Part shown: piece after piece, positions 2,022-23,300 of the stretch
Numbering within the stretch: position 1 is the stretch's first letter
Layout: each line of letters opens with the position of its first letter
Source of the DNA: Prevotella sp.
GTDB lineage: Bacteria > Bacteroidota > Bacteroidia > Bacteroidales > Bacteroidaceae
Length of the DNA stretch: 64,000 bases
Reading direction: 5' to 3'
Assembly (NCBI GenBank): GCA_017417465.1
Contig: JAFPZD010000242.1
Span: 1-64,000 of the forward strand
Made by a program: the position numbers and the translations under genes
Notes under the pieces: model-generated
What the model saw: only the letters and a program-made list of their open reading frames with translations
The model's database searches: none
What the model was told of the DNA's origin: nothing

Positions 2022-2062
2022 GAAAATCTGCTTTTTGTGTCGTTATTTCGACGAACGACAGG

Positions 2063-4164: not shown

Positions 4165-4222
4165 TTTTTTAATAATTGTGTATGTAACATTACATTTGTG
4201 AGTTTTTTGCACATTTTCTCGG

Positions 4223-4307
4223 CAAAGGTACTACTTTTTTATTATATAATTTGTATGATAGCCGAAAAGCTGTCAGACTTGTTGTGCAGAAATGTTCACT
4301 TTGCGCA
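4223..4307 (-). promoter_or_regulatory. Promoter with paired TGCGCA operator (Por-tail gene)
   Basis: On the minus strand the -7 box TACCTTTG is at 4230-4223, with an A-tract just upstream and no -33 TTTG. Half-site cores are at 4302-4307 (TGCGCA) and 4283-4288 (TGCACA on the coding strand), 19 bp apart. The nearer lies 52 bp from the -7 box. A poly-A plus ACGGCG stretch precedes the distal site. Confidence 0.7.
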
Positions 4308-4390
4308 GAAACGCCGTTTTTTCGCAATATTCTTCCTCCAGTCGCGTTCAAAAAGGGTGCTCTTCTGCAGATCAGACGGCTGTATCAAAC

Positions 4391-8200: not shown

Positions 8201-9052
8201 AAGCGTTGCCTTGCCAATAATGCCGCCTGCTATATCATCGGTTGTGGATATAGTGCAATTCATGATTAGACAATCAATGCACTGTACTCTTTGCTCATTG
8301 TCAACGATGACAGCTTTACCATTCTTATAGTATTTTCCGTCAACGTCGGGATCTTCAGTCGCAAATCCGATGATGCCGCCAACGCCGGTCGCAGCGCCAG
8401 TTACAGAACAGTCGATGACGCGTATGCCTTCAAATTTACAGCCTTTATAAACACGCATATTTGTATTCTCATCTGTGTACCAGTCCGGGGAGGCTTTCCC
8501 ACAGATGATGCCGGCATAGGTGTTTTCACTCAAAAGGCCGGAACCATCGCCTATGACATGATAGTTACGCACGACCAGGTCTTTGATATACCCGCCTTTA
8601 AGAACCTTAAAAAGGCCTTGGTAATAGCCTTGGGTATAGGATGATTGCAAGGCATAGCCGTTGCGGATGGTGTGGCCATGGCCGTCGAACGTAGCCTGAA
8701 TACCATAGATATTACTACGCGTGATGGAGAAATAATAGCCGTTGAGGTCTATGTCGCACAGCAGGTGTACGTTCGTACTACGGAGTTTCTTATCGGAATC
8801 TTTTTCGTGCATTTCCCGAGCATACCGGGCCAGCTGCGCAGCGTTGCGGATTTCGATTTCGCCGGCGCTGTTGATGGTGTAGTTCTGCATCGACTGTCCG
8901 TCCCACTGGCTGTAGCCGTCGATGGTGATGTTGGCACCGTTCTGCCCGAACGAGGCGTTCAGGGTCCATTCGTCGATGTCATACAGTTCACGCTGTGCTG
9001 CTGCCGGCAGCGTCATCATCGCCAGAAGCAGGAGTAGGGTGTTGTATTTCAT
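5228..9052 (-). CDS. GLUG/leucine-rich-repeat (BspA-like) surface protein, paralogue 1
   Basis: The start at MKYNTLL gives a signal peptide ending PAAAQ; MARKGRMKY 18 bp upstream is a possible alternative. The 1274-residue product has two blocks of GLUG-type glycine motifs (AGALLG, VGLFGALMN, VGGIGGRV, AGGICGNV). These are followed by BspA-type leucine-rich repeats (LPEGLQYIGNKAF, LPNSITRLGDEAF) near the middle and a C-terminal beta region. It ends in a Por-like tail (YFDLSGRRINGN, then KGIVIKNGRKF). This is the layout of adhesin-like cell-surface proteins. It is a close paralogue of the gene at 9141-13124 directly upstream. The central and C-terminal parts are nearly the same, while the N-terminal GLUG block has diverged. 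It is probably part of the operon that starts at 20757. An adhesive or glycan-binding role is inferred from the family. Confidence 0.85.
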   Translation of the reverse strand: MKYNTLLLLLAMMTLPAAAQRELYDIDEWTLNASFGQNGANITIDGYSQWDGQSMQNYTINSAGEIEIRNAAQLARYAREMHEKDSDKKLRSTNVHLLCDIDLNGYYFSITRSNIYGIQATFDGHGHTIRNGYALQSSYTQGYYQGLFKVLKGGYIKDLVVRNYHVIGDGSGLLSENTYAGIICGKASPDWYTDENTNMRVYKGCKFEGIRVIDCSVTGAATGVGGIIGFATEDPDVDGKYYKNGKAVIVDNEQRVQCIDCLIMNCTISTTDDIAGGIIGKATLANIERNRVINTTVRGEDEYAGALLGTDWSVKFSNDSYSKQSQINCQDNLVLNCSVSGDDIVGGAIGTLGTDYSSSGYRFYTIKNNMIHATVDGNTDHKAAVVYGISTVEVFPVSNNYYDTEFCTLAPVKTLEGTAAGKTIAEDKTAADMRSLDMGSDSRFKKMENLWPQLQSDYASDKVITTAKELVALAEEVNNGICTYEGRVVRLGADIDMTGVLMPTIGITDHPFMGEFNGQSHTISNLSITSTNDNVGLFGALMNAYVHNVRIDGATIIGENHVGVLFGTAVFSPCYISDVLVENSSVTGLGSVGGIGGRVADDKNIAYATIERCYFNGSVTTAYANTNDAAWAGGICGNVLRGAITDCGCVATITRSTQGELKAGLIGGTNGTLTVTRCYATDQNNTRLPLVAGRGSVASVTETNCPATIATQDGMQSDLGDNWFYFTVKNNLPIPASLGKYTTDDPTVIEGDFVFYPNNDEATSYYVKEYIGAGGNVTIPTTVIIKDETKPVTKINTEVFCERSDVTSVTLPEGLQYIGNKAFYGTGITSLSLPNSITRLGDEAFAACQSLASISIGSGSMTVSSTTFRKLPSLATITVAAGNTALKAEDGVLFSKSGTSLYVCAAKGTTKGDYTVPAGVGYVYANAFAYCTQLTGITFPSTMVSSYNDLFIGCDNLRYVDFSQCNDWEQGGLLSAGVTVRRNPTARERVIYTKLPFAGLSEQTIIYLPANRSHNANSEKNVVIGNLGTELVLTDGMDFDPKVAFTFPSSSYDRTFRAHITTEGYEDKGYTVCLPFAWTLNVEENSQAKVYAPSVIEYVEGVTTVTFSEVQGGQMAAFTPYYIVVGSGEAYVNGQGGSVAQHQTAGTTVIDGASYQFKGSTATIPNATLFDAQKPAYILQSDGWWHKVPSAEPRAYVGPFRAYFQATTPNSARSLAMIFSSSDNPNEGSETTAIEPVVRTIDRDGTEQYFDLSGRRINGNAKGIVIKNGRKFVR

Positions 9053-9140
9053 TCTACCTTTTCTCGCCATGGCAGAATTGATGCGAGCATCATTCTGCTC
9101 ATTTGGCTTAACGAAAACGTTGATTTTTTTGAGTATCATA

Positions 9141-12100
9141 CTATTTGCTAATATATTTTTTACCGTTTTGTATGTATATGCCTTTCTGGGCCCCGTCGAT
9201 GCGGCGACCGCTGAGGTCGAAGACACGCTCGGTGCCGTCGGCGTCGATGGTGCGGACGACGGGCTCGATGGCCGTTGTCCCACTACCTTCGTCGGGGGTG
9301 TAGCTGCCGCTGAACATCATGGCGAGGCTGCGGGCGCCGTTGGGAGTCGTGGCCTGGAAGTAGGCGCGGAAGGGGCCGACGTAGGCACGCGGCTGGCCGC
9401 TGGGCACCTTGTACCAGATGCCGTCGCTCTGCAGGATGTAGGCGGGCTTCTGCGCGTCGTAGAGCGTGGTGTTGGGGATGGTGGCGGTGCTGCCCTTGAA
9501 CTGGTAGGAAGCTCCGTCGATGACGGTGGTGCCTGCCGTTTGGTGCTGCGCCACTTCGCCGCCCTGACCGGCGACGGTGGCTGCGCCGCTGCTTACTACT
9601 ATATAATAAGGTGTATAAGCCTCCATCTGTCCACCCTCCACCTCGCTGAAGGTGACGGTGGTCACGCCCTCGATGTCGGCAATCTCCGACGGGGCATAGA
9701 CCTTGGCCTCGCTGTTCTCTTCGAGGGTAAGCGTCCATGCGAAGGGCAGGCATACGGTGTAGCCTTTCTCTTCGTAGCTCTCGGTGATGTTATAGGCCTG
9801 TACAGGCTGTGTCTTGTAGGTCACACCGTCCTCTTCATAGAGGTGGTTACCGTTCTCGTCGTACACAAATTCCAGCACGGGTTCGCCGTGTTCGTCCAGT
9901 TCATACACGGGGTTGCCGCTCTCATCCACCTGGGGCTCGGCTGTGGCTACCTGCTGGGCAGCAAAGTAGCGGTCGTAGCTGACAGCGGGGAAGCTGAACG
10001 CCACCTTCGGGTCGAAATCCCAACCGTCGGTCAGCACGAGGTCGGTGCCCGTGTTGCCGATAACAACGTTCTTTTCGCCGTTGGCGTCATGTCTTCTGTC
10101 GGCGGGCAGATAGATGATGGTTTGTGCGGATAGTCCGGCGAAGGGGAAGGATTTAAAAATATTCAGACGTTCAACAGCAGTCGGATTACGGTTCACGGTA
10201 ATGCCTGGGTCACTGAACAAGCCTCCCTGCTCCCATTCAGTGCACTGGCTGTAATCCACATAGCGGAGGTTGTCGCAGCCGATGAACAGGTCGTCGTGGG
10301 AGCTTACCATGCTGCTTGGGAAGGTGATGCCCGTCAGTTGGTTGCAGTAGGCGAAAGCGTTGGTATAGACATATTCCACGCCTGAAGGCACAGTGTAGTC
10401 GCCCTTGGTGGCACCCTTCGGGGCGCAGACGTAGAGATATTTGCCGCTTGCGGAGAGGAGCACGTCGTCGATAGCCTTCAGCGATGTGTTGCCTGCAGCG
10501 ACCGTGATGCTGGCAAGATTCGGTAGTTTGTTGAAAGTCGTTGAATTTACTCCTGTGCTTCCGCTACCGAAGCTGATGCTGGCGAGCGACGGACAGGCTG
10601 CGAAAGCCTCGTCACCCAATCCTGTAATGCTGCCTGGCAGCGAGAGGGAGGTGATGCCCGTTCCGTAGAAGGCCTTGTTACCGATGTATTGTAGGCCCTC
10701 TTGCAGCGTGACGCTGGTGACGTCGCTGCGCTCACAGAACACTTCTGTGTTAATCTTCGTCACCGGCTTTCCGTTGACAGTGGCGGGGATGGTTACGGCG
10801 CCGCCGGTGCCGATGTATTCTTTCACATAGTAGGAACTTGCTTCATTGGTGTTGTTGGGATAGAACACCAAGTCACCCACTATCACCGTGGGATCATCAG
10901 TGGTGTATTTACCCAAGTTGGCAGGGATGGGCAGATTGTTCTTTACAGTGAAGTAGAACCAGTTGTCGCCCAGGTCGGTCTTCATGCCATCCCTATAGGC
11001 GATGGTTTCGGGGCAGCTGGTCTCCGTCACTACGGCGTCGCTGCCACGGCCATCGACCAGGGCGAGCCTGGTGTTGTTTAGGTCGGTGGCATAGCAGCGG
11101 TTGACTTCCAGGGTGCCGTTGCTGCCGCCGATGAGTCCAGCCTTCAGTTCGCCCGTGGTGGAGCGGGTGATGGTGGCGATGCATCCGCAGTCGGTGATGG
11201 TGCCGCGCAGCACGTTGCCGCAGATACCGCCTGCCCATGCCGCGTCGTTGGCATTAGCGTAGGAGGTGGTCACCGTGCCTATGAAGTAGCAGCTCTCGAA
11301 GGTGGCGTAGGCTATATTCTTGATGTCGGCCACTCGTCCGCCGATGCCGCCCACGCTGCCCAAGCCTGTGACGGAGCTGTTCTCTACCAGCACATCGCTG
11401 ATGTAGCAGGGGCTGAAGACGGTGGTGCCGAAGAGCACACCCACGTGGTTCTGACCCGTGACGGTGGCTCCGTCGATGCGGACGTTGTGGAGGTAGGCGT
11501 TCATCAGGCAGCCGAAGAGGCCCACGTTGTCCTGCTGGGCGTTGATGGTCAGGTCGCTGATGGTGCGGCCCAGACCGTTGAACTCGCCCATGAAGGGATG
11601 TTCGGCCGTGCCGATAGGTTTCATGCTGACGCCCGTCATGTCGATGTCGGCACCCAGTCGCACTACGCGGCCCTCATAGTCCTGCCGACCGCTGTTCACC
11701 TCTTCGGCCAGAGCCACGAGTTCGGCGGCTTTGGTGATGACCTTGTCGTTGTTGAAGTTTGCCTGCAAATGCGGCCAGAGGTTTGTCCTGGTCTTGAATG
11801 CTGAAGGATCAGAGCCGAGGTAGGGAACTGACATGCCAAGCATTTCCACAGTAGTCTTGCCTTCGGGCCATTCCTGCCAATACATCCCCATGTCTAAAAA
11901 AGCAGGCAGCGAGCCGGAATAATCCTTGTTGTAGTAGTTGCGTAAAGCATACACCTCATCGCTTCCGCATTTAACGAAGAATGCCGCCTTATCACCGGTG
12001 CCTCCGTCAACCGTAGCGTGGACGATATTGGCAATTATTTTATTTGACATATTATCCCCCCACGTTCCTAAACCACCGAAAGCGCCTGCAGCCCAGTCGT

Positions 12101-13124
12101 CTCCGCTGACATTGCAGTTCAAGACAAGGTTGTCAACGGCATTAATCACTTCTTCACTTCTGCCTACCAGTCCGCCAGCATAGTCATCCTCACCATAAAT
12201 GGAGGTGTTGATGACGCGGTTTCTGTACAGGGCAAGAACCTCTGAAGAGCCGACAAGACCGCCAGCCGAGTTGTCGGTCGTGGATACGGTGCAATTCATC
12301 ACCAGGTTGTCGCAAAGTTGTACTTTCCACTTGTCTGGGGCAAAATAGTAATCTATTGCGCCGCCCCTCTCATCATATTTGATTAAGGCACTGCCACGTG
12401 CCCACCCAAGAATGCCTCCTGCGTAGGTGGCATCGCCGGTCAGCGTGCAGTCTATCACTCGAACACCCTCGATGATACAGCCATAATGGTACATTCCGTA
12501 CTCCTTCGCAGAGGAGTCTCCTGGACGGTAATTTGGTACATCGAATTGAATTTCTTTAACTCTTGCAAAGCTACATACGATTCCGGCATAGTTCGCGCCA
12601 GAGTCCTTCAAATGGTAGTCTTTCACCACCAAATCCCTGATGGTACTGCCTTCGATATATGAGAAGAGGGCATGATAGCTGCCGCTCTCCACAGCATAGC
12701 CGTTGCGGATGGTGTGGCCGTGGCCATCGAACGTGGCGCGGTCCATGCCATAGTCTTTGCGCAGGATGGAGAAATAGTAGCCGCCCAGGTCGATGTCGCA
12801 CAGCAGGTGTACGTTCCTACGCTTGCGGTCGGCCCGGATGTAGCTGTTTGCCTCGTACATATCCCAGGCATAGCGTGCCAGCTGGGCAGCATTGTAGATT
12901 TCGATGTCTCCGTCCTTGTTGAATCCGTAGTACTGCATCGACTGACCGTCCCACAGACTGTATCCGTCGGCGGTCAAATTGGCATTGTTCTTTCCGAAAT
13001 TGTCGTTGTTTGACCATTCGTCGATGTCCTTAGTCTCTTTCTGCGCCGCTACTGGCAGCGCTGTCAGAAGGCTTGCGACCACCATCAGTGCCGCTACCCA
13101 TTGTCTTGTCAAGTTCTTTTTCAT
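9141..13124 (-). CDS. GLUG/leucine-rich-repeat (BspA-like) surface protein, paralogue 2
   Basis: The 1327-residue protein has a signal peptide (MKKNLTRQW to PVAAQ), GLUG-type motifs in two blocks (AGGILGWARG, AGGLVGSSE, VGLFGCLMN, AGLIGGSNG), BspA-type leucine-rich repeats (LQEGLQYIGNKAF, LPGSITGLGDEAF), a beta-rich C-terminal part and the tail VFDLSGRRIDG with KGIYIQNGKKY. The order matches its neighbour at 5228-9052. It differs by an extra acidic segment of about 55 residues (VDESGNPVYELDEHGEP and following, DNA 9795-9970), where paralogue 1 goes straight from the conserved FSFP-S/YDR region to GYTVCLPFAWTL. Predicted to be secreted and surface-attached. It lies 88 bp upstream of paralogue 1 and 32 bp downstream of a lipoprotein gene, consistent with one operon. 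Confidence 0.85.
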   Translation of the reverse strand: MKKNLTRQWVAALMVVASLLTALPVAAQKETKDIDEWSNNDNFGKNNANLTADGYSLWDGQSMQYYGFNKDGDIEIYNAAQLARYAWDMYEANSYIRADRKRRNVHLLCDIDLGGYYFSILRKDYGMDRATFDGHGHTIRNGYAVESGSYHALFSYIEGSTIRDLVVKDYHLKDSGANYAGIVCSFARVKEIQFDVPNYRPGDSSAKEYGMYHYGCIIEGVRVIDCTLTGDATYAGGILGWARGSALIKYDERGGAIDYYFAPDKWKVQLCDNLVMNCTVSTTDNSAGGLVGSSEVLALYRNRVINTSIYGEDDYAGGLVGRSEEVINAVDNLVLNCNVSGDDWAAGAFGGLGTWGDNMSNKIIANIVHATVDGGTGDKAAFFVKCGSDEVYALRNYYNKDYSGSLPAFLDMGMYWQEWPEGKTTVEMLGMSVPYLGSDPSAFKTRTNLWPHLQANFNNDKVITKAAELVALAEEVNSGRQDYEGRVVRLGADIDMTGVSMKPIGTAEHPFMGEFNGLGRTISDLTINAQQDNVGLFGCLMNAYLHNVRIDGATVTGQNHVGVLFGTTVFSPCYISDVLVENSSVTGLGSVGGIGGRVADIKNIAYATFESCYFIGTVTTSYANANDAAWAGGICGNVLRGTITDCGCIATITRSTTGELKAGLIGGSNGTLEVNRCYATDLNNTRLALVDGRGSDAVVTETSCPETIAYRDGMKTDLGDNWFYFTVKNNLPIPANLGKYTTDDPTVIVGDLVFYPNNTNEASSYYVKEYIGTGGAVTIPATVNGKPVTKINTEVFCERSDVTSVTLQEGLQYIGNKAFYGTGITSLSLPGSITGLGDEAFAACPSLASISFGSGSTGVNSTTFNKLPNLASITVAAGNTSLKAIDDVLLSASGKYLYVCAPKGATKGDYTVPSGVEYVYTNAFAYCNQLTGITFPSSMVSSHDDLFIGCDNLRYVDYSQCTEWEQGGLFSDPGITVNRNPTAVERLNIFKSFPFAGLSAQTIIYLPADRRHDANGEKNVVIGNTGTDLVLTDGWDFDPKVAFSFPAVSYDRYFAAQQVATAEPQVDESGNPVYELDEHGEPVLEFVYDENGNHLYEEDGVTYKTQPVQAYNITESYEEKGYTVCLPFAWTLTLEENSEAKVYAPSEIADIEGVTTVTFSEVEGGQMEAYTPYYIVVSSGAATVAGQGGEVAQHQTAGTTVIDGASYQFKGSTATIPNTTLYDAQKPAYILQSDGIWYKVPSGQPRAYVGPFRAYFQATTPNGARSLAMMFSGSYTPDEGSGTTAIEPVVRTIDADGTERVFDLSGRRIDGAQKGIYIQNGKKYISK

Positions 13125-13156
13125 TTTTTTTATGTTATCATTCTCTTTCTGTGAGA

Positions 13157-13798
13157 CTACATGGAGGCTCTTGTCGTGCCCGTGGCACCGTCGGTGGAGA
13201 CCTCAGTGTCGCGGTTGGGGTCGTCGTTGTCGGCATTGCCACCCCATGTAATGGCGGTGTCGGTGATGCTGCCGTCGGCACTGATGGCTTTCGCCTCAAG
13301 CAGGCGGGTGCTGATGCGTGTCAGGAACTGGCCCAGGAAATCGGGGCCGAGCTGACCCTTCGCTTCCAATTTGTTGCCCACATAAGGATTGCCGAAGGTG
13401 GCACCCTTCTGGTCAAGCACGGTGACGGTCATCTTCCCGTCGGCCTCGATGGTGTACGCCTCCTGTGAGGGCGCACCCTTCAATTGAGGCTGCACGCTGA
13501 AGCCTGCCTGTGTGGGCAGCGCAGCGAAGCTGACGGTCTTTGTCCACGTGGTCGTAGTGGCAGTCTCCTGCGCCTGTTGTCCGTTGCCATCTATATAATA
13601 TATGGTGACGGTGGCGGCATCGAGCAGCCCCTGGTTCAGGTTCACCACATATTCGGCCGTGGCACTTGTGGCCTTCAGCACATCGGGTTGTGGCGTTGGC
13701 GTGGGATCATCGTTGTCGTCACTTCCGCCACACGAGGCAAGGCTGCCGAGGACCAGCAGGCCCCCGAGCAGCATATTCATTATCTTCAGATTCTTCAT
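13157..13798 (-). CDS. Lipoprotein of unknown function
   Basis: The 213-residue product has a lipoprotein signal ending GSLASC, then GGSDDNDD and a Thr/Pro linker (PTPTPQP). The acid-rich stretch after the cysteine suggests display at the cell surface. The remainder has beta-strand character with no named domain and is not obviously related to the lipoprotein at 2063-2692 beyond the signal. It sits between the 2283-residue BspA-like gene and GLUG/LRR paralogue 2 with short gaps, so it is most likely part of their operon. A role as partner or anchor for these surface proteins is possible but not shown. Confidence 0.75.
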   Translation of the reverse strand: MKNLKIMNMLLGGLLVLGSLASCGGSDDNDDPTPTPQPDVLKATSATAEYVVNLNQGLLDAATVTIYYIDGNGQQAQETATTTTWTKTVSFAALPTQAGFSVQPQLKGAPSQEAYTIEADGKMTVTVLDQKGATFGNPYVGNKLEAKGQLGPDFLGQFLTRISTRLLEAKAISADGSITDTAITWGGNADNDDPNRDTEVSTDGATGTTRASM

Positions 13799-13859
13799 TG
13801 TTCCTTTTACTTTTTACTTATTACTTATTCAAGTTTCGTCTGTAGTTAGAGGTCGTTAT

Positions 13860-13900
13860 CTATCCAGACATCCCTCCCTTCGGGAGGGCTTGGGTGGGCT
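13860..13900 (-). repeat. CCCTCCC palindromic repeat between operon genes
   Basis: The minus strand reads GCCCACCCAAGCCCTCCC-GAAGGGAGGGA, a GC-rich hairpin unit. The same family supplies the terminal arms of the element inside dnaG (23901-24026) and the unit at 28185-28220. It lies between the stop of the 2283-residue protein gene and the start of the lipoprotein gene. On the minus strand no T-run follows the hairpin, so it is more likely a REP-like unit than a strong terminator. Confidence 0.65.
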
Positions 13901-13905
13901 TTTTT

Positions 13906-16900
13906 TTATTTGATGACCTTCTTACCATTCTTGATGAAAATCCCCTTGGCATTACCATCCACGCGGCGACCGCTGAGGTCGTAGACGCGCTCGGTGCCGT
14001 CGCTGTCGACGGTGCGCAGCTGCTCAATGCCCGTGGCATCCTCGAGTGTCATGCCGATGGCGGCGCGGCTGTTGTAGCGGCTCTGCAGCAGGAAACAGCG
14101 GAAGGCGGGGATGGTGGCGGCGCGGTGCTCATCCGTGTCAGAGAGCACGGGGTGCCACTTCGCATCGTCGTTCATTACGTAGGCACCCAGCTCAACGGCC
14201 TCATGGTTGTCGATGCTGTTCAGCGTGCCACGCAGTGTGTATCCAAGCACCTGTTGCTGTTCGCCTACGGTATCACCATTGCTGGTGGGCAGCGTCGTGC
14301 TCACGGTTGAAAGCAGGGCATCGCTGTTTTCCGTCCAGACGAGGTAAGGCTGCATGGCTTCCATACGACCTGTGTGCTGGGCAAAGATGAGTTCGTTTGA
14401 TCCACGTCCAGAGAGGCGGTAGACCTTCGCACCGTTAGGGATGTCGAGGGCGTAGGGCAGGCAGACGGTGTAGGGGGCGGCGCTCTTGGCCAGCGTGCGG
14501 GTGTTCTCCACGTTGTCGGCCGTCACGGCGAAGGGCACGCAGTAGTCCAGTCCGTCCACTAAGCGGAAGGTCTTGGCGTGGAAGACGCCGCTGGTACTGT
14601 CGCCCATGGCCACGTTCACATCGGCACTCTCGCCATACTGTGCAGGTACATACGCCAGCGTGTTCTCGCCGATGCCGAGCGAGCGCACACCACCCTCGGC
14701 GGCGAGCGTCGGGGCATAGTCGGCACACTGGCTCAGGTCTACATAGCGCAGGCCGGCAGCGTTCTTGAAGGCATCCTTGCCCACGCCCTTGATGGAGGCG
14801 GGCAGGGTGACGTTGCGCAGTTGTGTGAGCGGCGCCACGTCGGCAGTGCGCAACGAGTCGATGCAGGTATACTGCAGCGCGTTGAAGTCGATAACACCAG
14901 TATGGTTGCGGAACCAGCCAGTGATGTCATTGATCTGTCGCAGGTCGTCCTCAGTGGCGGCGGCGTGAGCAGCGAAGGCAGCAAATGACTCGTCGTCTTT
15001 GAAGGCACCCTTCGAGATGTTGTTCGTGCGCTGTTCTGAACCGGTATATGCCCCATCGTTGACATACTCATCGTAGAGCGACGGTCGCACGTAGAAGGCG
15101 TCGAATGTCGGGTTGTAGTTGTTGCACAGGTTACGCCACACCCAGTTCTCATTGTCCATCTCCATTTTCTTCTTCGAGAGGATGTACATGCGGGTCATGG
15201 AGGCGCAGTCGTCCAATGCACTCCAGTTGAATTCCTCGCACTCGTCGCCGATGACTAATGTCTCCAAATATTCACATTCCTGCATGGCACGCCTATTCAC
15301 CTTCTTACATGAGCGTGGCAGGATGAGCGTCTTCAGCGAGTAGCACTTGGCCAGTGCATAGCTGGGCAAGATGTCCTCTTCGCCTTCAGCTTGAATTTTA
15401 CTTCCATAGTCACGCCAGTTGCCGTCCATCGCGTATTTGCTCACTACGATGTTGGCATCGTAGAGGTCGATGTACTCCAGTGGGCCGAGGTAATTGCGGT
15501 CGGCACTTGCATCGGGAATGTAACGCAGGGCTTTCTCTACGTCGTAGCCTGCCAGGAAGCGCATCACAGTAAAGTCGGCACCCGAGATGGGACCGTTGAC
15601 CTTCAGGCCTCGGATGTTCGAGTAGTTACCTGTGACGGAACTGATATATCGGAGTTCCAAGTAACGGAAATATTCGTCAGACGTGTCGAAAGTTGTCGTC
15701 GTCTTCAGTCCCAGTTTCTCGGCCAGCGTATTGGGCTCGGTCAGCGTCACCTCGATGATTTCGTTGCGGAACTCTTCATCCTCGCCCACGATGTGGTCGG
15801 CATACTGCTCCCACTTCTCGCGGTAACGTTTCACATGCGTCTTTGGCACGATGATCTTGAAGTCGGAAGGCAGGTCGCGCAGGGCGTTACGCTCCAGTTC
15901 AGGCACACTGTCGGCGCTGATTCGGATAGTGCCTAAACGCTCGCATCCTCTGAAGGCATCGTAGCCGATGCGCTCCAATGAGCTGGGTAGCGTGATGCGC
16001 TCTAGATAGGCACAGTTCTCAAAGTCGTGATCCATCTCGCGGATGTTGCTGAAGAGTTGGAACTCGTCGAAGGTCTTCAGCTGGCGGTCATAGTAGAAGA
16101 AGTAGCCGTCGCCACCGAAATAGCTGCCACGAGGATCCTTCGTGCTCTCCACGGCGAGGAACTGCGATGGGAAGTAGCATCGATGGGCCATCAGGTCTTT
16201 CAGCACTTGTTCGTCCTCGAAGAGGGCATTGACGCTTCTGGCGCGGTTGGTCAGGGCAGGGTCGCTCATGTAGTCGCCTAACTGCGACTTCTTGGTATAA
16301 ACCTTTTCGATGGGTCCTTCCCACGGGTCGTCGCTCTCGCTGGTGGCATGCCGGTCGGTCATGAACACCAGTTCCTCCAGCCCGGCAGGGATGCCCTGTA
16401 TCAGGTCGCGCGTGTACCTTTCTAATCTCTCTCCGATGCAGAGGCGGCGCAGGTTCGTTGCCTTCTCAAAGGCATTCTCACCGATCTCCGTCACCGACGC
16501 AGGCAGGATGAGCGTCTCCAGAGCATTGCATTTGTAGAACATGTATTCGCCTACCCAGTTCTCCTTCTCCAGGTATTCGTCGACGCCCCAGAGGTTGTAC
16601 GAGTATTTCGTGTCCTTGTCCAAGTGGGCATCGTGCAGGTCCAGGTAGCGCAGGCGTCCGTCGGTGGGGTCGCTGTCCCAGGCGTCGGCACCCATCATGT
16701 GGCGCAGCACGCCCACGTCGAGGCCGTTCAGGTGGCCGCTGACGGTCAGCGAGTCGTACTTCCAGTAGGCACCGCCTACGGAGCGCAGCCGGTCGCCGTT
16801 CATGATCAACGTCAGTCCTAACTGCTCTGCCAGCTTGCCGGGCTGGCTCACATTGACAACGGTCAGTTTGTGGTCGTCGGCATTGCTCTTGATGTACTGT

Positions 16901-19900
16901 GCATAGCTGGGCCAGGCCGTCTTGTAGGCATCTACAGCCGAAGCGGGCACATAGATGGTGAAACCGTCGTAGTTGCTGAGGTCGAACACGCTGTAGTCCA
17001 GCTTGGCGGGCTTCGTGCCCTCGCAGCGTACGGTCTTCAGTCCGCTGTACTGGAAGGCGCAGGCATCGATGGTCTCCACAGCGGCGGGGATGCTAATCTC
17101 CTTCAGCTTAGAGCAACCGTAGAAGGCCCAGCCGCCGATGTGCTTTACGGTCGAAGGCAGGTCGATGGCGCTGAGGTTCTTACAATTCTGGAACCACGAG
17201 CCACCCACCTGCGTGAGTCCGACCAACTCGAAGCGCTTGAAGTCGGGGAAGGATTGCAGGTCTTCGTTGTCCGAGAACTTGCCGTTGAGGTAGTCGCTGG
17301 ATGTCACCCGTGTGATGTCGAGCCAGTCGCCCCACTTCGGGGCGTTGTTGTCGTACCACGGACGCGCTACGTCGGTGCGGTATTTCAGATCGCTCAGTTT
17401 GCTCACCACCACGGGGTCGGCGGGCAGGAAGAGACAGGGCATGAAGCGGTCCTGGTATTTCACCCAAGTGGTGTCGGCAGCGAACTGCCGTGTTTGCCGC
17501 TCGGTCATCTTGAAGCGTACCTTCGGCGAATGGTCGAACACGCCCTTGCCCAGTTGCAGCATTGTGGGCGTGAGCGGTTCGGCAATGTTCGATCCGTCGG
17601 TGCGCAGGTAGAGCATATCCACATGCTCGAGGTTTGGACATTCGGCGAAGCACGAGTCCTGCAGCGCCATCTGCAGGTCAGTATAGGCATCGCCCGTCCA
17701 CAGCCAGCCCGCTACGTCCCAGAACGAGACGCTCTTCACGTTCTGGTTCTTGCGGAAGGCATTCTTGCGGGCATAGTCGAGCTTGTAGTTGTTGTAGGAA
17801 CCGATGTCGTTGAAGAAGCCCAGCGCACCGTTGTTGTCCTTGATATAGTCGTCGTCGGGGCCGATGGCGTGCAGGTGCTCGATGGTATGTCCGCTCAGCT
17901 TTTCCACATACTGGTTGCCGTTCTGATAAGAGAATGCGTATTTCACGCCAAACTCAGTGAAGTTGGTCTTTTCTTCCACGTCCTCATACTTGAAGAAGCG
18001 CTTGTACTGACCCCACATCTCGTCGTTCTCAAAGTCCTCACGGCGCTCCTTGGGAATGATAATCCTGAACTTCAGCGAATCGAGGCCGGCAAAGATGTCG
18101 CTGCCGCAGAGCACGAAGTTCTCAGGCCCCATGGCGCGGCTACCGTTGTCGTCGGTCAGCAGGCGCAGGTCGAATGTCTCCAAGGCATCACAACCCACAA
18201 ATGCCGAGTCGGGGATGTATATGAGGTTGGCCGACATGTTGTGGCTGGTGCGGGCGCTGTTGTCGTGGAAGCGCACTGTCTTTAGCTGTTTCTTGTTCTG
18301 GAACACCGTGGGCAGCCACGTCGTGGTGCGGGTCACCTTCGAAACGCCGGTGTAGATCACAGCATCCTTGATGTCATCAGGAGCACTCTTGATGAAAGTA
18401 TGGTAGATGAGGTTCTTGTCGGGCGTGATGATAATCATGTTGCTGGCATGTGTGCTCACCTGGTGCATGTTGGCTATGATGTTGCTTTGCATGCCCTGTT
18501 TCAGCGAGGCAGCGTTGAGGTTGCCCATTAAATTGCAAGTAGCCAGGTTGCTGCCAATGGTCGCTCCGATAAATGACGAGTTTGAAAGCAGCGAGTAGTT
18601 CATGGCATTTCCTGCAACGAGGGCGGCAACATCCTTTCTCGACACATCGGCCATAAGGGCAGCGGTGTTTCGTCCGGCTTCTCTCATGCTATTGAAAATT
18701 AATTGAGAAGAACTGCTTTGGAAGGCCATCATATACTGCCTCAAAACCTTTGCAGCCTCCGAATTCATATTTGACATGAAAATACTAAACACCTGATCGT
18801 ACTCCAGTTGGAAAATGCCTTTGCTATCGACTAATCCCAAATTGAACATTTTATTAAATAGTGGGGTACCTTGATTCCAAACACCCATTTTGGTAACATC
18901 CACACCCTTTCCGAACAGCGATAGACCCGTAAATTGTGTTGGATAGGCTTGGCCCGCTGCATAATCTCCTAAAACAGTTGCCGTTTCTTGCGCGAGTTTC
19001 TGTAAGTCCACGACATTATCCGCCATTTGCTCAATGTCTTTCAGCTTTGCCGTTGCAGCCTTGAGCGCAGCCTTCGCAGTGGCTGCTTCCTTGACCGCCA
19101 CCGCGATATTATAGGCCGAATAGGCTATCATAGCCACCTCGGCAGCAATGACGGGAATGCTCCACAGCGAGAAGTCCTGTGTCACCACCTGATCGGTGTT
19201 GTAGGTGCCGTCGCCCGTTGCTATATAGCTGTAGGTCAGACCGTCCTTGGTGATGTCGGGCTTGGCGGTGGGCATGTAGTCGGCTGGTTGTAGATAAGCG
19301 GTGTAGTTGACCCAGTTGGGGTCTTCCTGGAACTCGGCATAGCGGTCGGGTGCAACAAGGATGCGGAAGTCAGGATTCACTATCCATGCGTCACTTGCTT
19401 GATTTTCATCCATCATGACGATTTCTTCGGAAGTTGGCAGTCCCAAGATGTTGTCGCCAGGGATGACATCCTTCGGCCCTAACACCTGCCAGTGGTCTTC
19501 GCCGTCTTCCACCTTGTAGAACAGGCGTATCTCCTTCAAATTTTTGCAGTTTTTGAAGGCACCGTTCTCAATCACCATCTTCAGGTCGCTGTAGGAGTTG
19601 TCCGAGCGGCCGTTGGTCTGCCAGAACTCCACCGCCTTCAGCTCGTCGCAGCCCTCGAAGGCTCCGCGGCGGATGGCGATGGTCTTGTAGTTGTAGTACG
19701 AGCCGGGGTCGTTGTAGATGCGTAGCACGCCGTCGTGGCTCTTCAGGTAGTTACTGTCCACGCCCTTCACCGTGGTGTACCACAGGTTGGCATTGTCCTC
19801 GGTTCGACTCTTGTCCGAGAGCAGCGAGGCAGCATTGAACTCCTGATAGTCGGCGTTCCACAGGCGCAGCGTCTTCATGATTTCCTCGTGCTGCTCGTCG

Positions 19901-20757
19901 GCATTGCTCAGGGCAGTGCCATCCTCAGCCTTCAGGAAGCTATAGACGGTGCCGTCCACCGTGATGTCGTCAGAGGCGTGTTCGAAGGTGGTGATGCGGT
20001 CGCGCACCTGCACCCACGTCTGACTCCCTAAGTACTGCTGATAGACGCTCGTGCCCACACGCAGCCACGCCTTGGGCGAGTTGTCGAGCATCGAGCCCCA
20101 GATGCGCTTCACCGCTGTCGGCGGCAGTGCCTCCCAGTGGTTAGAGCCGCTGGTGGTCCACTGCATCAGGTTCACCTCCTCAAGGTTCTCGCAGTCGGCA
20201 AACGCCTTGTCGCCGATGAAGAAATAGAAGTCGCTGTTGGCAGAGTAGCTCGCAGCCGCGCAATCCTGGAAATAGATGCGCTTGACGCCCGGCATGCCCC
20301 AGAAGGCGTTGTCGGCGATGCAGCCCAGATGGGTATGGCCCTTGAAGAAGCCCACGAGGTCGTTGAGGATATAGACCTCGCCGCTCGACGGGAAGTCGTC
20401 GGCATCGATGCTGGCGGCCGTGATGTAGGCTTTCTCGGCGTTCACGTACCAGCCCTCGGCATCGAGATACCATCCGTAGTCGCTCGGCTTGTGGACCGCG
20501 GTGTTGAAGTAGCGGGTGTAGTTGTGCTCCGTGATGTAGGTGTACTTCACGCCCTTGTATTTGTACACATAGTCATCTGTCGGTGCTCGTTTCGGTGCCT
20601 TTTGGGACTTGGCCACCGTGCTGTCGAGCAGTTCCACCTCGCTGGCGACAATGTCAGCAGATTCGGTGCTCTGACGAACATTCAATTCGTCAGCCCATGC
20701 GCCCGTGGCCATCATTGTCAGCCACAGCGCAAGAATTGTTAGGATACTTTTTTTCAT
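13906..20757 (-). CDS. Giant BspA-like leucine-rich-repeat surface protein
   Basis: The start at MKKSILTILA gives a clean signal peptide ending GAWADE; an ATG 30 bp upstream is less likely. The product is 2283 residues. Many BspA-type leucine-rich repeats are seen (LPSTVKHIGGWAFYGCSKL, LPASVTEIGENAF, LPSSLERIGYDAFRGC, LPASIKGVGKDAF), with the family's I-G-x-x-A-F core. About residues 525-790 interrupt the repeats with a non-repetitive, Ala/Met-rich helical region (VAMIAYSAYNIAVAV and onward) encoded by visibly more AT-rich DNA. The C-terminus is a Por-like tail (VYDLSGRRVDGN, KGIFIKNGKKVI). It is probably a secreted, surface-exposed adhesin-type protein and the first gene of an operon reaching to 5021. 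It is driven by the promoter at 20828-20912 with the paired TGCGCA operator. Confidence 0.85.
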   Translation of the reverse strand: MKKSILTILALWLTMMATGAWADELNVRQSTESADIVASEVELLDSTVAKSQKAPKRAPTDDYVYKYKGVKYTYITEHNYTRYFNTAVHKPSDYGWYLDAEGWYVNAEKAYITAASIDADDFPSSGEVYILNDLVGFFKGHTHLGCIADNAFWGMPGVKRIYFQDCAAASYSANSDFYFFIGDKAFADCENLEEVNLMQWTTSGSNHWEALPPTAVKRIWGSMLDNSPKAWLRVGTSVYQQYLGSQTWVQVRDRITTFEHASDDITVDGTVYSFLKAEDGTALSNADEQHEEIMKTLRLWNADYQEFNAASLLSDKSRTEDNANLWYTTVKGVDSNYLKSHDGVLRIYNDPGSYYNYKTIAIRRGAFEGCDELKAVEFWQTNGRSDNSYSDLKMVIENGAFKNCKNLKEIRLFYKVEDGEDHWQVLGPKDVIPGDNILGLPTSEEIVMMDENQASDAWIVNPDFRILVAPDRYAEFQEDPNWVNYTAYLQPADYMPTAKPDITKDGLTYSYIATGDGTYNTDQVVTQDFSLWSIPVIAAEVAMIAYSAYNIAVAVKEAATAKAALKAATAKLKDIEQMADNVVDLQKLAQETATVLGDYAAGQAYPTQFTGLSLFGKGVDVTKMGVWNQGTPLFNKMFNLGLVDSKGIFQLEYDQVFSIFMSNMNSEAAKVLRQYMMAFQSSSSQLIFNSMREAGRNTAALMADVSRKDVAALVAGNAMNYSLLSNSSFIGATIGSNLATCNLMGNLNAASLKQGMQSNIIANMHQVSTHASNMIIITPDKNLIYHTFIKSAPDDIKDAVIYTGVSKVTRTTTWLPTVFQNKKQLKTVRFHDNSARTSHNMSANLIYIPDSAFVGCDALETFDLRLLTDDNGSRAMGPENFVLCGSDIFAGLDSLKFRIIIPKERREDFENDEMWGQYKRFFKYEDVEEKTNFTEFGVKYAFSYQNGNQYVEKLSGHTIEHLHAIGPDDDYIKDNNGALGFFNDIGSYNNYKLDYARKNAFRKNQNVKSVSFWDVAGWLWTGDAYTDLQMALQDSCFAECPNLEHVDMLYLRTDGSNIAEPLTPTMLQLGKGVFDHSPKVRFKMTERQTRQFAADTTWVKYQDRFMPCLFLPADPVVVSKLSDLKYRTDVARPWYDNNAPKWGDWLDITRVTSSDYLNGKFSDNEDLQSFPDFKRFELVGLTQVGGSWFQNCKNLSAIDLPSTVKHIGGWAFYGCSKLKEISIPAAVETIDACAFQYSGLKTVRCEGTKPAKLDYSVFDLSNYDGFTIYVPASAVDAYKTAWPSYAQYIKSNADDHKLTVVNVSQPGKLAEQLGLTLIMNGDRLRSVGGAYWKYDSLTVSGHLNGLDVGVLRHMMGADAWDSDPTDGRLRYLDLHDAHLDKDTKYSYNLWGVDEYLEKENWVGEYMFYKCNALETLILPASVTEIGENAFEKATNLRRLCIGERLERYTRDLIQGIPAGLEELVFMTDRHATSESDDPWEGPIEKVYTKKSQLGDYMSDPALTNRARSVNALFEDEQVLKDLMAHRCYFPSQFLAVESTKDPRGSYFGGDGYFFYYDRQLKTFDEFQLFSNIREMDHDFENCAYLERITLPSSLERIGYDAFRGCERLGTIRISADSVPELERNALRDLPSDFKIIVPKTHVKRYREKWEQYADHIVGEDEEFRNEIIEVTLTEPNTLAEKLGLKTTTTFDTSDEYFRYLELRYISSVTGNYSNIRGLKVNGPISGADFTVMRFLAGYDVEKALRYIPDASADRNYLGPLEYIDLYDANIVVSKYAMDGNWRDYGSKIQAEGEEDILPSYALAKCYSLKTLILPRSCKKVNRRAMQECEYLETLVIGDECEEFNWSALDDCASMTRMYILSKKKMEMDNENWVWRNLCNNYNPTFDAFYVRPSLYDEYVNDGAYTGSEQRTNNISKGAFKDDESFAAFAAHAAATEDDLRQINDITGWFRNHTGVIDFNALQYTCIDSLRTADVAPLTQLRNVTLPASIKGVGKDAFKNAAGLRYVDLSQCADYAPTLAAEGGVRSLGIGENTLAYVPAQYGESADVNVAMGDSTSGVFHAKTFRLVDGLDYCVPFAVTADNVENTRTLAKSAAPYTVCLPYALDIPNGAKVYRLSGRGSNELIFAQHTGRMEAMQPYLVWTENSDALLSTVSTTLPTSNGDTVGEQQQVLGYTLRGTLNSIDNHEAVELGAYVMNDDAKWHPVLSDTDEHRAATIPAFRCFLLQSRYNSRAAIGMTLEDATGIEQLRTVDSDGTERVYDLSGRRVDGNAKGIFIKNGKKVIK

Positions 20758-20827
20758 TTGGGTTGGATTAGTTTTGTCGTGTTGCATAGATACTCCATTT
20801 TTAGGGGCTTCTCCCCCAATTAGCTGG

Positions 20828-20912
20828 CGAAGTTACAACTTTTCTTTTATATAAGAGGTGTAAATGGTGAAAAGTCGTTGAGTTTGTTGCGCAGGAAACG
20901 CTATTCTGCGCA
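20828..20912 (-). promoter_or_regulatory. Promoter with paired TGCGCA operator (BspA-like operon)
   Basis: On the minus strand a -7-like box TAACTTCG lies at 20835-20828 behind an A-tract, without a -33 TTTG. TGCGCA cores lie at 20888-20893 and 20907-20912, 19 bp apart, each preceded on the coding strand by TTTC or TTCC. The nearer core is 52 bp upstream of the box. The divergent gene at 21008 starts beyond it, so the operator could serve both sides. Confidence 0.7.
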
Positions 20913-20964
20913 GAAACGGAGGTTTTTTTTGGCAAGACGGCGATTTAGAGAGCCAATCGTTGGG

Positions 20965-20991
20965 TTGTTTAATAAAAAAGTTGTACCTTTG
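20965..20991 (+). promoter_or_regulatory. Promoter for the polytopic membrane protein
   Basis: A perfect -7 box TACCTTTG lies at 20984-20991 after AAAAAAGTTG. A TTG at 20965-20967 is a poor -33 match because the gap is only 16 bp. The box ends 16 nt before the ATG at 21008, so the leader would be very short. Confidence 0.55.
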
Positions 20992-21007: not shown

Positions 21008-21619
21008 ATGGAAAAGATAGAACAAAACAAAGCCGCCATCGGAGTGGCTGAGAGCATTGAGAGCAAGTATCGCGTTAACTACGTAGAGAGTGGACTGCCC
21101 CGCTGGCTGATTGAAGCTGCGTTCGTCTGCTACCTCCTGCAGGCTACCATCAACTGGGCACCGCTGATGCACTGGATGGACGACATGTCGCTGTCGTGGG
21201 TTAGTGCCATCATCCAGACATTTGGCCCTGTGGTGATGTATGTGGGGCTGATGAGGGGCATGAAGCCGCTCTACAGGCCCATGACCGTAGCATGGTGGAT
21301 CGTCATCGTGCTGAACATCGCAGGATTCTTTACGGAAATGATTCCGGCTGTCTCGTACACCATCGGACTGCCCGTCGCCGTGTCGCTGATGCTGGTCTAC
21401 CTGCCTTTCGGCTGTGCCATCGCCTTCTGCTATCGAGGGCACTTGCGCCAGGTGGGCATCTGGATGGCGCTCTACATCCTCATCTCAAGTATCATTCCCG
21501 TCCTCTCGTTCCTGCTGGTTGGGCCTGAGTCGGGCCTAGCCAACCTGCCGATGGAAATTCCTACCATCGCCGTCATCGTCATCTACGCTTGGGTGCAACG
21601 AAGGGTGCTCGTGAAGTGA
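21008..21619 (+). CDS. Polytopic inner-membrane protein of unknown function
   Basis: The start is at MEKIEQNKA, just after a clear -7 box; an upstream in-frame ATG at 20960 lies before the promoter. The 203-residue product has a hydrophilic N-terminus of about 40 residues and then about six hydrophobic segments (for example FVCYLLQATI, VIVLNIAGFF, ISSIIPVLSFLLVG). It ends in a short basic tail (QRRVLVK). I do not recognise the family. It stands alone on the plus strand, divergent from the BspA-like operon and followed by long repeat arrays. Transport or sensing cannot be assigned from sequence. Confidence 0.7.
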   Translation: MEKIEQNKAAIGVAESIESKYRVNYVESGLPRWLIEAAFVCYLLQATINWAPLMHWMDDMSLSWVSAIIQTFGPVVMYVGLMRGMKPLYRPMTVAWWIVIVLNIAGFFTEMIPAVSYTIGLPVAVSLMLVYLPFGCAIAFCYRGHLRQVGIWMALYILISSIIPVLSFLLVGPESGLANLPMEIPTIAVIVIYAWVQRRVLVK

Positions 21620-21643: not shown

Positions 21644-21743
21644 ACCGTATCTTCTGGTTGAGAGTACCGTATCTTCTGGTTGAGAGTACCGTATCTTCTG
21701 GTTGAGAGTACCGTATCTTCTGGTTGAGAGTACCGTATCTTCT
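21644..21743. repeat. 22-bp tandem repeat array, 4.5 copies
   Basis: The unit ACCGTATCTTCTGGTTGAGAGT repeats exactly at 21644, 21666, 21688 and 21710, with a partial fifth copy at 21732. It begins 25 bp after the stop of the membrane protein gene. No spacers separate the units, so it is not CRISPR. It contains no believable gene. Confidence 0.9.
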
Positions 21744-21820
21744 TTTGCAGGGGATACGGTTTTCTCTTTCTTCCAATTGAGCGGGTAACTGTAAGGGCCG
21801 GCGTTTCCGCGGATGTTTTT

Positions 21821-21949
21821 CCGCGAATGTAGGGGCAGGCCTTGTGCCAGCCCGATGGCCCGACAGGGCCAGTGTGCCCATAACATTTCCGCGAACACTG
21901 GCCCTGCCGGGCCATCGGGCAGGCACAAGGCCTGCCCCTACATTCGCGG
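21821..21949. repeat. 129-nt REPIN-like hairpin element
   Basis: Two inverted arms of 55 bp (21821-21875 and 21895-21949) differ at only about two positions and enclose a 19-nt loop. The arm starts CCGCGAATGTAGGGGCAGGC. A single, unpaired half of the same element lies at 28256-28310. This is how REP sequences and their paired REPIN forms look. Translation of the arm gives the spurious peptide (VGAGLVPAR) that often appears in over-predicted genes. Confidence 0.85.
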
Positions 21950-21977
21950 CCCGCACCCGAGTGGCGGCCCGCACCCG

Positions 21978-22117
21978 AGAAGTCTCACAGTTTTCTCCTA
22001 GAAGTCTCGCGGTCTTCTCCGAGAAGTCTGGTAGTCTTCTCCTAGAAGTCTCACGGTCTTCTCCTAGAAGTCTCGTGGTCTTCTCCTAGAAGTCTCGCGG
22101 TCTTCTCCGAGAAGTCT
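21978..22117. repeat. 22-bp quasi-palindromic tandem array, 6 copies
   Basis: The unit AGAAGTCTCGCGGTCTTCTCC plus one base recurs at 21978, 22000, 22022, 22044, 22066 and 22088, with a remnant at 22110. Most changes fall in the middle of the unit (TCTCACAG, TCTCGCGG, TCTGGTAG, TCTCGTGG), while the AGAAG and CTTCT ends, which pair with each other, are kept. It lies between the hairpin element and the 3' end of the AraC-type gene. Confidence 0.85.
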
Positions 22118-22188: not shown

Positions 22189-22905
22189 TCACGCATCACC
22201 CTTCACGGCTAGTGCCTGCCGATACTGCAACGGCGTGATGCCGAGACGCCGCTTCACTTCCACCTGGAAGGTGCGGCGCCCGCCAAACCCTGCTTCTGCT
22301 CCCACAGCCTCGATGGTCCAGTTGGGCTCTTCGCGCAGCAATCGGCATGCCAGCAGGAAACGCTTCTCGTTGATGTATTCGCCAAGGCTGGCATACTTCT
22401 CATTGTTTCTGAACAGGCTGCCGAGTCGCTTCTGCGTCAGTCCTAATGCCTTGGCCATGGTCTTCAGCGTCAGGTCGGTGTCGGTGTAGAGGCGGGTCTC
22501 ATCCATTTTCTGGTCTACCCAAGCCATTAGTTCTTCGTCGGTCATGTCAGCCGTCAGCTCAATATGCTCACGGTGTTGGCGGGTTTGTTCGCGTAGCAGC
22601 GTCACCTCGTCGACGGTGTTTTGTTTCAATTGCTTGGCTAACTCCTCTTGTTGTCGCTGCAGCGCCTCGATCAGCTCCTTCTGTTCCTCCATCTCGCTTT
22701 TCTGCTCTTCCAGTTCGTTCATTCGCCTCTCCAGTTCGCTGCCCTGAATCTTGTTCTGTTCCAACAACGCGTTTTGGTTCTCTACCAGCATGGTGTTGGT
22801 AGAGATAATCTTCTTCGCATTGTTGTTCAGCACCAGCATCGTGATAATAAATGCTATCACGAGGGCAATGATGATGGCAGCAATGAGTAGGTGTGCTCCG
22901 GTCAT
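22189..22905 (-). CDS. Membrane-tethered AraC-family transcription regulator
   Basis: The start at MTGAHLLIAA puts a single transmembrane helix at residues 3-25 directly at the N-terminus; an in-frame ATG 75 bp upstream lies inside or before the promoter. The 238-residue product continues with a long coiled coil (about residues 40-100, many Glu/Gln/Leu heptads such as ELERRMNELEEQKSEMEEQ). It ends in an AraC-type helix-turn-helix domain (LTLKTMAKALGLTQKRLGS, then IEAVGAEAGFGGRRTF, RLGITPLQYRQ). It has no periplasmic sensor domain, which is unusual, so the input may be membrane state or a partner protein. Its own promoter carries the paired TGCGCA operator found at three other promoters. AraC-type proteins often bind direct repeats about two helical turns apart, so it is a candidate for the factor that reads that operator and controls itself (inference). 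Confidence 0.8.
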   Translation of the reverse strand: MTGAHLLIAAIIIALVIAFIITMLVLNNNAKKIISTNTMLVENQNALLEQNKIQGSELERRMNELEEQKSEMEEQKELIEALQRQQEELAKQLKQNTVDEVTLLREQTRQHREHIELTADMTDEELMAWVDQKMDETRLYTDTDLTLKTMAKALGLTQKRLGSLFRNNEKYASLGEYINEKRFLLACRLLREEPNWTIEAVGAEAGFGGRRTFQVEVKRRLGITPLQYRQALAVKGDA

Positions 22906-22936
22906 TGAAATGCGCAGTATTGTTAGTTTTGGACTG

Positions 22937-23022
22937 CAAAAGTACGCTTTTTTTGTCGATAATACAGCATTATTATCCATAAATCGTCATTATTGCTTGC
23001 GCAAGAACTTGTATTTTGCGCA
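22937..23022 (-). promoter_or_regulatory. Promoter with paired TGCGCA operator (AraC-type gene)
   Basis: On the minus strand the -7 box TACTTTTG is at 22944-22937, behind an A-tract and without a -33 TTTG. TGCGCA cores lie at 22998-23003 and 23017-23022, 19 bp apart; the nearer is 53 bp upstream of the box. AAAAACGGGTG precedes the distal half-site, as at the other members. Confidence 0.7.
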
Positions 23023-23048
23023 GAAACACCCGTTTTTAAAAGAAAGGG

Positions 23049-23300
23049 GCTGCGCTCGAAGGTACTTGCACTCGGAAATAAAAAAAGAAAACGACTTTTC
23101 TTTTGTATTTCCCTCGTTTTTTCGTACCTTTGAGCTGCGCTCGAAGGTACTTGCACTCGGAAATAAAAAGAAAATGATTTTTCTTTTGTATTTCCCTCGT
23201 TTTTTCGTACCTTTGAGCTGCGCTCGAAGGTACTTGCACTCGGAAATAAAAAGAAAATGATTTTTCTTTTGTATTTCCCTCGTTTTTTCGTACCTTTGCA
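23049..23300 (+). repeat. Three tandem 83-85-bp promoter repeats before dnaG
   Basis: Copies start at 23049, 23134 and 23217 with GCTGCGCTCGAAGGTACTTG and end with TTTTTTCGTACCTTTG. Each holds a full Bacteroidetes promoter (TTTG, 19-bp gap, TACCTTTG). The third copy passes straight into the dnaG leader. A related array in the opposite orientation lies at 29939-30146 and shares the parts TTCGTACCTTTGAGCTGCGC and TCGAARGTACT. Reading frames through it are repeat artefacts. Confidence 0.9.
23268..23298 (+). promoter_or_regulatory. dnaG-proximal promoter
   Basis: TTTG at 23268-23271, a 19-bp gap and TACCTTTG at 23291-23298 match the consensus exactly. The ATG of dnaG is 36 bp further. It is the last of three tandem copies, so dnaG may have three start sites. 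Confidence 0.75.

Follow-up and report, generated by a model that had tools for sequence, protein, structure and literature searches.

The 64,000-nucleotide stretch of Prevotella DNA analysed here (the window) contains four minus-strand promoters marked by a pair of short direct repeats, which precede a gene for a membrane-anchored AraC-type regulator, a set of genes for BspA-type LRR proteins and a lipoprotein, and two further genes for secreted proteins (Table 1). A gene for a hydrophobic membrane protein lies between the BspA-like genes and the regulator gene. The original prediction had proposed the four pairs from the letters alone; all are present as placed, with cores 19 bp apart in four of four cases, and the distance that it gave from the nearer core to the -7 box also held (51, 52, 52 and 53 bp). 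The pair at 4283 is accompanied by an extra tandem unit, TGCGAA at 4321-4326, 19 bp further upstream.

Table 1. Genes, paired sites and -7 boxes of the regulator locus in the window
Feature	Position	Strand	Remarks
Secreted hydrolase-like protein	146-1867	-	PF03583 LIP, barely above cut-off; recurrent target cluster
-7 box TAATTTTG	1938-1945	-	51 bp from proximal core
Paired site TTTCTGCGCA-N9-TTTTTGCGCA	1997-2025	-	before hydrolase-like gene
Secreted protein of unknown family (2806 protein)	2806-4212	-	export signal; likely start 4161
-7 box TACCTTTG	4223-4230	-	52 bp from proximal core
Paired site TTTCTGCGCA-N9-TTTCTGCACA	4283-4311	-	before 2806 gene; cores TGCGCA/TGCACA
BspA-type LRR protein	5228-9283	-	start unsure; presumed target operon
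BspA-type LRR protein	9141-13124	-	presumed target operon
Lipoprotein	13157-13798	-	presumed target operon
BspA-type LRR surface protein, 2293 aa	13906-20787	-	signal peptide; likely start 20754; first operon gene
-7 box TAACTTCG	20828-20835	-	52 bp from proximal core
Paired site TTTCTGCGCA-N9-TTCCTGCGCA	20888-20916	-	between membrane-protein and BspA-like genes
-7 box TACCTTTG of membrane-protein gene	20984-20991	+	71 bp from shared site
Linked hydrophobic membrane protein	21008-21619	+	six segments by hydropathy; tail to tail with regulator
AraC-type regulator, 238 aa, membrane-anchored	22189-22905	-	hydrophobic segment 7-25; HTH_18
Third half-site TGCGCA (ACTGCGCATTTCAATG)	22911-22916	-	immediately 5' of regulator start codon
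-7 box TACTTTTG	22937-22944	-	53 bp from proximal core; regulator promoter
Paired site TTTCTGCGCA-N9-TTCTTGCGCA	22998-23026	-	upstream of regulator; presumed autoregulatory

The regulator, its membrane partner and the secreted proteins

The regulator carries the C-terminal HTH of the AraC/XylS family (Pfam PF12833, 6.7e-13; PF00165, 8.5e-09), and this region matches chains of SoxS, AraC and MarA in a sequence search of the PDB. Across the 238 residues Pfam returned HTH families only, with no ligand-binding domain detected, and a long charged stretch, coiled-coil-like by eye, separates the hydrophobic segment from the HTH. The protein combines a DNA-binding domain and a membrane helix (by hydropathy) in one chain, as one-component transmembrane regulators do. 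About six residues precede the helix, and the regulator therefore has no periplasmic sensor domain. One hydrophobic segment is found in 37 of 39 aligned regulator rows and none in the remaining two, judged by hydropathy only. A single scan of a species collection yielded 27 relatives, including 26 close ones (57 to 84% identity) that all come from uncultured or MAG assemblies assigned to Prevotellaceae, Bacteroidaceae or, more broadly, Bacteroidales/Bacteroidia. Samples of rumen, reticulum, omasum or abomasum are named for six of these 26, and many of the others bear 'RUG' names, which we take to denote rumen genomes.

The membrane protein (~203 aa) belongs to no Pfam family and gave no match in a PDB sequence search; in 39 aligned rows its hydrophobic segments number six (19 rows), five (13), four (6) or three (1). 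It adjoins the regulator in 24 of 26 homologous loci, lies ~6 kb away in L059 and was not found in L056. When 59 loci were reduced to 41 nonredundant cassettes at 97% regulator DNA identity, 37 had the two genes tail to tail, three (subfamily D, below) had another layout and one had no partner; the second pair is located beyond the far end of the partner gene. Used as a search marker in overlapping draws of genomes, the partner had a patchy distribution. Within the genus, 31 of 398 genomes gave a match, two of them weak or partial; two other genera of the same family gave 3 of 13 and 9 of 139, a draw from the family 7 of 399, and 294 others from the order none. At one locus, L190 (G262:C83), a weak membrane-protein relative (E 1e-14) stands with no regulator match in the 9 kb read. 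The gene dnaG, a neighbour in the window, was detected in none of the 26 homologous loci, with flanks of up to 10 kb and some much shorter, and the cassette therefore occupies different genomic places. No relative indicating a mobile-element origin was found among viral contigs or, at E up to 1e-15, among plasmids.

Repetitive DNA surrounds the regulator gene in the window, as seen by eye. Arrays of ~20- to 24-base repeats of the CCGTATCTTCTGGTTGAGAGTA and AGAAGTCTCGCGGTCTTCTCCG types occupy 21650-21745 and 21980-22115 in the tail-to-tail gap; a long inverted repeat, GGGCAGGCCTTGTGCC... against its complement, spans 21785-21960 in the same gap; and GCTGCGCTCGAAGGTAC occurs twice within 23046-23150, immediately upstream of dnaG.

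From their order and common strand, the BspA-like and lipoprotein genes at 5228-20787 are presumed to form one target operon. The proposal that the targets are secreted proteins is borne out: all 35 non-regulator genes behind strict sites encode a protein with an export signal, as against 12 of 31 other genes, the latter drawn from one window only (p 8e-09). Of 63 genes behind strict sites with a -7 box, 28 were first removed as regulators, 25 of them by rule and three (L076, L174 and L175) by hand. Each gene was represented by the longest ORF with a start no more than 420 bp from the -7 box and was scored with a home-made hydropathy and cleavage-site heuristic. One counter-example, L053, has a degenerate pair and a -7 box at 53 bp followed by a 114-aa protein with no export signal. 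Among other loci outside the strict pattern, L057, L059 and L140 lead to proteins with export-signal-like starts, and the sequence read at L069 contains neither a notable gene nor a -7 box. The 35 targets fall into 14 sequence groups, nine of them singletons. The largest are a group of eight that includes the window hydrolase and a 259-aa family, also of eight, which occurs under the A, B and C words described below; they are followed by six BspA-like proteins, two members of the 2806 family and one group of two that is presumably clostripain-like. The G161 relative of the 2806 protein likewise lies under a pair with the TGCACA variant. The suggestion that such proteins carry Por-type C-terminal tails was rejected: five window proteins matched no T9SS sorting model of NCBIfam at E up to 10, in a check whose filters mostly dropped matches above E ~0.1.

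Paired sites and promoter geometry

When one mismatch is allowed, TGCGCA-N13-TGCGCA matches five times in the window against 0.42 expected, a number reached by none of 100 shuffled sequences; two of the five matches overlap at 4283-4326, where the third unit stands beside the 4283 pair. Counted from the -7 box, TTTG at -26 to -22 is present in 5 of 54 promoters with a site and in 21 of 84 controls (Fisher p 0.025), which lends modest support to the further claim that these promoters lack the TTTG -33 box.

The genome of origin (4.42 Mb in 278 contigs, 90.8% complete) was searched for further sites. With up to three mismatches, TTTCTGCGCA-N9-TTTCTGCGCA gave six rows, which are the four sites and two opposite-strand echoes of them, and the reversed-pattern control gave one match. 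The bare cores, with up to one mismatch, occur at 15 places (reversed control, 4), five of them in this region, and a -7-like box at 49-65 bp is found only at the four reported sites. All four pairs lie within 21 kb of the 238-aa regulator. Because pairs with a -7 box occur at only four places in this genome, the four window pairs are a circuit local to the regulator. Of the original prediction, one regulon that includes the AraC-type gene is supported; a regulon dispersed across the genome is rejected, as the whole-genome scan placed the pair and -7 box at no promoter beyond the four.

The geometry is kept in relatives. A motif-free period scan (10-mers repeated at 9 of 10 letters, low complexity removed, periods 11 to 40) found a period of 19 in 20 of 41 regulator upstream regions and 16 of 40 target sides, where each other period scored 0 to 5. 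Among 57 sites, TAnnTT[TC]G follows the proximal repeat at 51 bp (13 matches), 52 bp (26) or 53 bp (10), so that 49 matches fall in the range seen in the window; two lie at 63 bp, one helical turn further, both in subfamily C regulator promoters, and six are stray matches at 1, 2, 23 and 44 bp. In subfamily A, to which the TGCGCA word belongs, the strict pair is present in 24 of 32 regulator upstream regions and 21 of 31 target sides. Among the misses, some have degenerate cores or lie at contig ends and L147 has its repeats 20 bp apart; some cassettes have no site at all, such as L072 on both sides.

The position of the third half-site bears on the sign of regulation. Of 32 subfamily A regulators, 13 have a TGC[G/A]CA half-site no more than 22 bp 5' of the ATG and another 9 have one at the -7 box, counts that fit autoregulation with feedback in part of the subfamily. 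They could also mean that the regulator is a repressor or has a dual role, with the third half-site near the start codon or -7 box shutting its own gene by negative feedback. We think this unlikely: 10 of the 32 have a half-site in neither position, TTTGCA beside a -7 box is common and part of the count may be chance, and the fixed upstream position (51-53 or 63 bp) together with the scarcity of TTTG -33 boxes points to activation of the targets.

The site shared with the divergent partner gene has a geometry of its own. In 26 of 27 cassettes the distal repeat lies 40-41, 62, 68-73, 81-82, 92-93 or 102 bp from the partner -7 box, the 27th having no such box, and a scan of periods between 5 and 30 has its maximum at 10.25-10.3 (R 0.82). 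The phase test was conceived after the distances were known, the cassettes share descent and distinct values only give p ~0.02. The helical phase suggests control of the partner gene from the shared site, and three cassettes found later (G826, G1104 and G796) have the partner -7 box at 72, 71 and 71 bp. The membrane protein, having neither a Pfam family nor a PDB sequence match, could instead be cargo, for instance an immunity or transport function for a secreted target with no part in signalling. We consider this the less likely reading, since the protein is retained while the targets span 14 families, the divergence of its copies parallels that of the regulator groups (by identity only) and its -7 box keeps helical phase with the shared site (26 distances, period 10.3). 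We accordingly keep to the membrane protein as a probable signalling partner.

Half-site words and regulator subfamilies

Pair and regulator occur together across genomes. With up to two mismatches, the pair is present in 26 of 26 regulator-bearing relative genomes (reversed-pattern control, 1 of 26), and the upstream DNA of the regulator in most of the 26 relatives has the same pair, often as TTTCTGCGCAAAAT-N5-TTYYTGCGCAA. It stands beside the regulator or the linked membrane protein in 24 of the 26, the exceptions being G172, where it is ~5.7 kb away, and G170, where it is found only on another contig and has no -7 box. In a set of 149 genomes including that of the window, which are related and not independent samples, core-perfect pairs (chosen by eye among matches with up to three mismatches) occur in all eight genomes with a regulator match of E below 1e-60 and in 3 of 141 others (Fisher p 3e-11). 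These three are G081, G058 and G070, and the pairs of G058 and G070 have no -7 box at the right distance. In G081 (locus L141) the regulator ORF behind the pair and its -7 box at 52 bp is just 134 aa long, and the cassette may be decaying.

Similar conserved TTTCTGCACA..TTTTTGTGCA sites, seen in many relatives and in five rows of the 26-genome search, were excluded from these counts because another gene follows them; in five of six loci read this is a long ORF whose N-terminus is conserved. A TTGCACAAAAANTTTNNNNATGTGCAGAAAA-like conserved element at ~1480-1560 in L035, L039, L041, L043 and L048, five loci all from genomes of the same genus (L037 differs), lies immediately 5' of such a long ORF with a conserved N-terminus, and a further TGTGCA lies near the ORF start codon.

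Regulators that are ~40 to 50% identical, with partner copies of their own, have different half-sites. The subfamily B word, TTTGGGGACA (GGGGACA), occurs at both ends of three cassettes. That of subfamily C, TTTCTTACA (CTTACA), is found on three target sides and in two of three regulator upstream regions, with no pair before the regulator of L168. Subfamily D has GATTTGAGCGA (GAGCGA) with a period of 20 in a shared divergent region in two of three cassettes, L119 having no pair. In the regulator tree, B, C and D each form one side of a branch with support of 99/95 or better, where long branches meet. One genome, G009, holds two cassettes, one with TGCGCA (A) and one with CTTACA (C). The second repeat extends into ACAA at most target-side sites of every subfamily, and the second-HTH region varies in step with the word (A, GFGGRRTFQ; B, GFVSRTTFQ; C, GFSNRLMLH), at residues presumed, from AraC-type HTHs in general, to read the DNA.

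Twelve loci were found later; five re-find L052, L053, L067, L068 and L070, and seven are new. Three of the seven have a clear target-side site, at 52, 52 and 53 bp (G826, G1104 and G796). The cores of the first two are variants (CGCGCA; TTCGCA/ACGCA), and their regulators are not preceded by a clear pair. G796 has a fifth word, TTTGCCA, as a 19-bp repeat before both regulator and target, each 53 bp from its -7 box, and two lipoprotein genes separate its regulator and partner. Listed by genome, G1151 has an ambiguous pair and no pair is seen in G941 (partner with internal stops), G1161 (contig end on the target side) or G1099 (partial partner); listed by locus, L187 is ambiguous and L181, L186 and L188 show no pair. 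The regulator upstream region of G796 (L189, ~4330-4385) also contains AAGTGCTTGGA repeated 23 bp apart, separate from the TTTGCCA pair. The layout of 19 bp and 52 bp that had been proposed is kept in relatives and belongs to a cassette family with a linked membrane protein and several half-sites.

These observations bear on what binds the pairs. AraC-type regulators may be targets themselves, and the pairs could be bound by another regulator encoded in trans, for which the AraC gene would be one target among others. We regard this as very improbable, because core-perfect pairs track the regulator (8 of 8 against 3 of 141), pairs in the genome of origin are restricted to its neighbourhood, and each regulator subfamily goes with a word of its own, also where one genome holds two cassettes. 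Co-occurrence, confinement and subfamily-linked words together support the proposal that the AraC-type protein itself is the likely binder.

Proposed mechanism and relation to known systems

Taken together, the sequence comparisons make it likely that the locus is an autoregulating, membrane-tethered AraC cassette, whose regulator would read the paired word and activate its own gene and nearby units encoding secreted proteins. The N-terminal helix would anchor the regulator in the membrane, and the coiled coil behind it would probably serve for dimerization; a tethered dimer could then set two HTH domains side by side, one direct repeat per subunit, on one face of the DNA. Bound to TTTCTGCGCA repeats 19 bp apart, the regulator would activate in a class-I-like manner from a -7 box 51-53 bp downstream, at promoters that usually have no TTTG -33 box. 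Its predicted targets are its own gene and three units within 21 kb: the BspA-like operon, the 2806 protein and the hydrolase. The membrane protein, whose gene is divergently transcribed from a promoter in helical phase with the BspA-side site, would probably receive or transmit the signal and may control the regulator, and in relatives the half-site may have diverged together with the regulator into separate words of the same geometry. On balance, we favour a broader reading in which these are self-wired cassettes with a constant partner and interchangeable secreted cargo, in which at least four rewritings of the word have left the architecture (19-20 bp, 51-53 bp and a phased partner) unchanged.

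Parts of this design are familiar. AraC itself binds direct repeats, as is typical of the AraC/XylS family at a spacing of about two turns, and the sites here have a period of 19-20 bp. AraC, MarA and SoxS share the HTH region with the regulator described here, which differs from them in being membrane-anchored and in having no ligand-binding domain detected. ToxR/ToxS and TcpP/TcpH each consist of a membrane-bound regulator encoded with a second membrane protein, a linkage that the cassette shares; their DNA-binding fold differs from the AraC-type HTH, and the partner here has several hydrophobic segments and a tail-to-tail gene order.

The closest parallels lie within the Bacteroidota. For Bacteroides HTCS, which have an AraC-type HTH, PMC3878776 reports predicted motifs made of direct repeats, 21 bp apart on average, in groups that follow the regulator protein tree. 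HTCS share with the cassette a membrane anchor joined to an AraC-type HTH, repeats in direct orientation spaced by about two helical turns, regulons that are local and motif groups that follow the tree; periplasmic sensor, kinase and receiver domains and the mean repeat of 21 bp are theirs only. The cassette differs in its 238-aa regulator, which shows only HTH families in Pfam and none of the HTCS domains, in its 19-bp spacing (20 in subfamily D) and 51-53 bp to the -7 box, and in its linked hydrophobic membrane protein and varied secreted-protein targets. Transmembrane one-component regulators (TTRs), which PMC10269533 describes as enriched in Bacteroidia, share the one-component plan of a DNA-binding protein with a membrane helix; the word 'AraC' is absent from the main text of that paper, and the regulator here has no periplasmic sensor. 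Because the regulator has neither the HTCS domains nor an extracytoplasmic sensor, we regard the cassette as a distinct form of membrane-anchored AraC-type regulation. No description of this cassette or its motif was recognised among the open-access papers searched.

In rumen relatives of Prevotella the cassette would represent a defined switch, open to experimental test, for secreted and surface proteins, BspA-like LRR proteins among them, and a membrane protein with no family becomes a candidate signalling partner. Natural pairs of recognition helices and DNA words at constant geometry could reveal the specificity of Bacteroidota AraC-type proteins. If the proposed reading is true, these bacteria hold a set of separate membrane-to-promoter circuits, diversified in nature, and, with it, a readable AraC recognition code.
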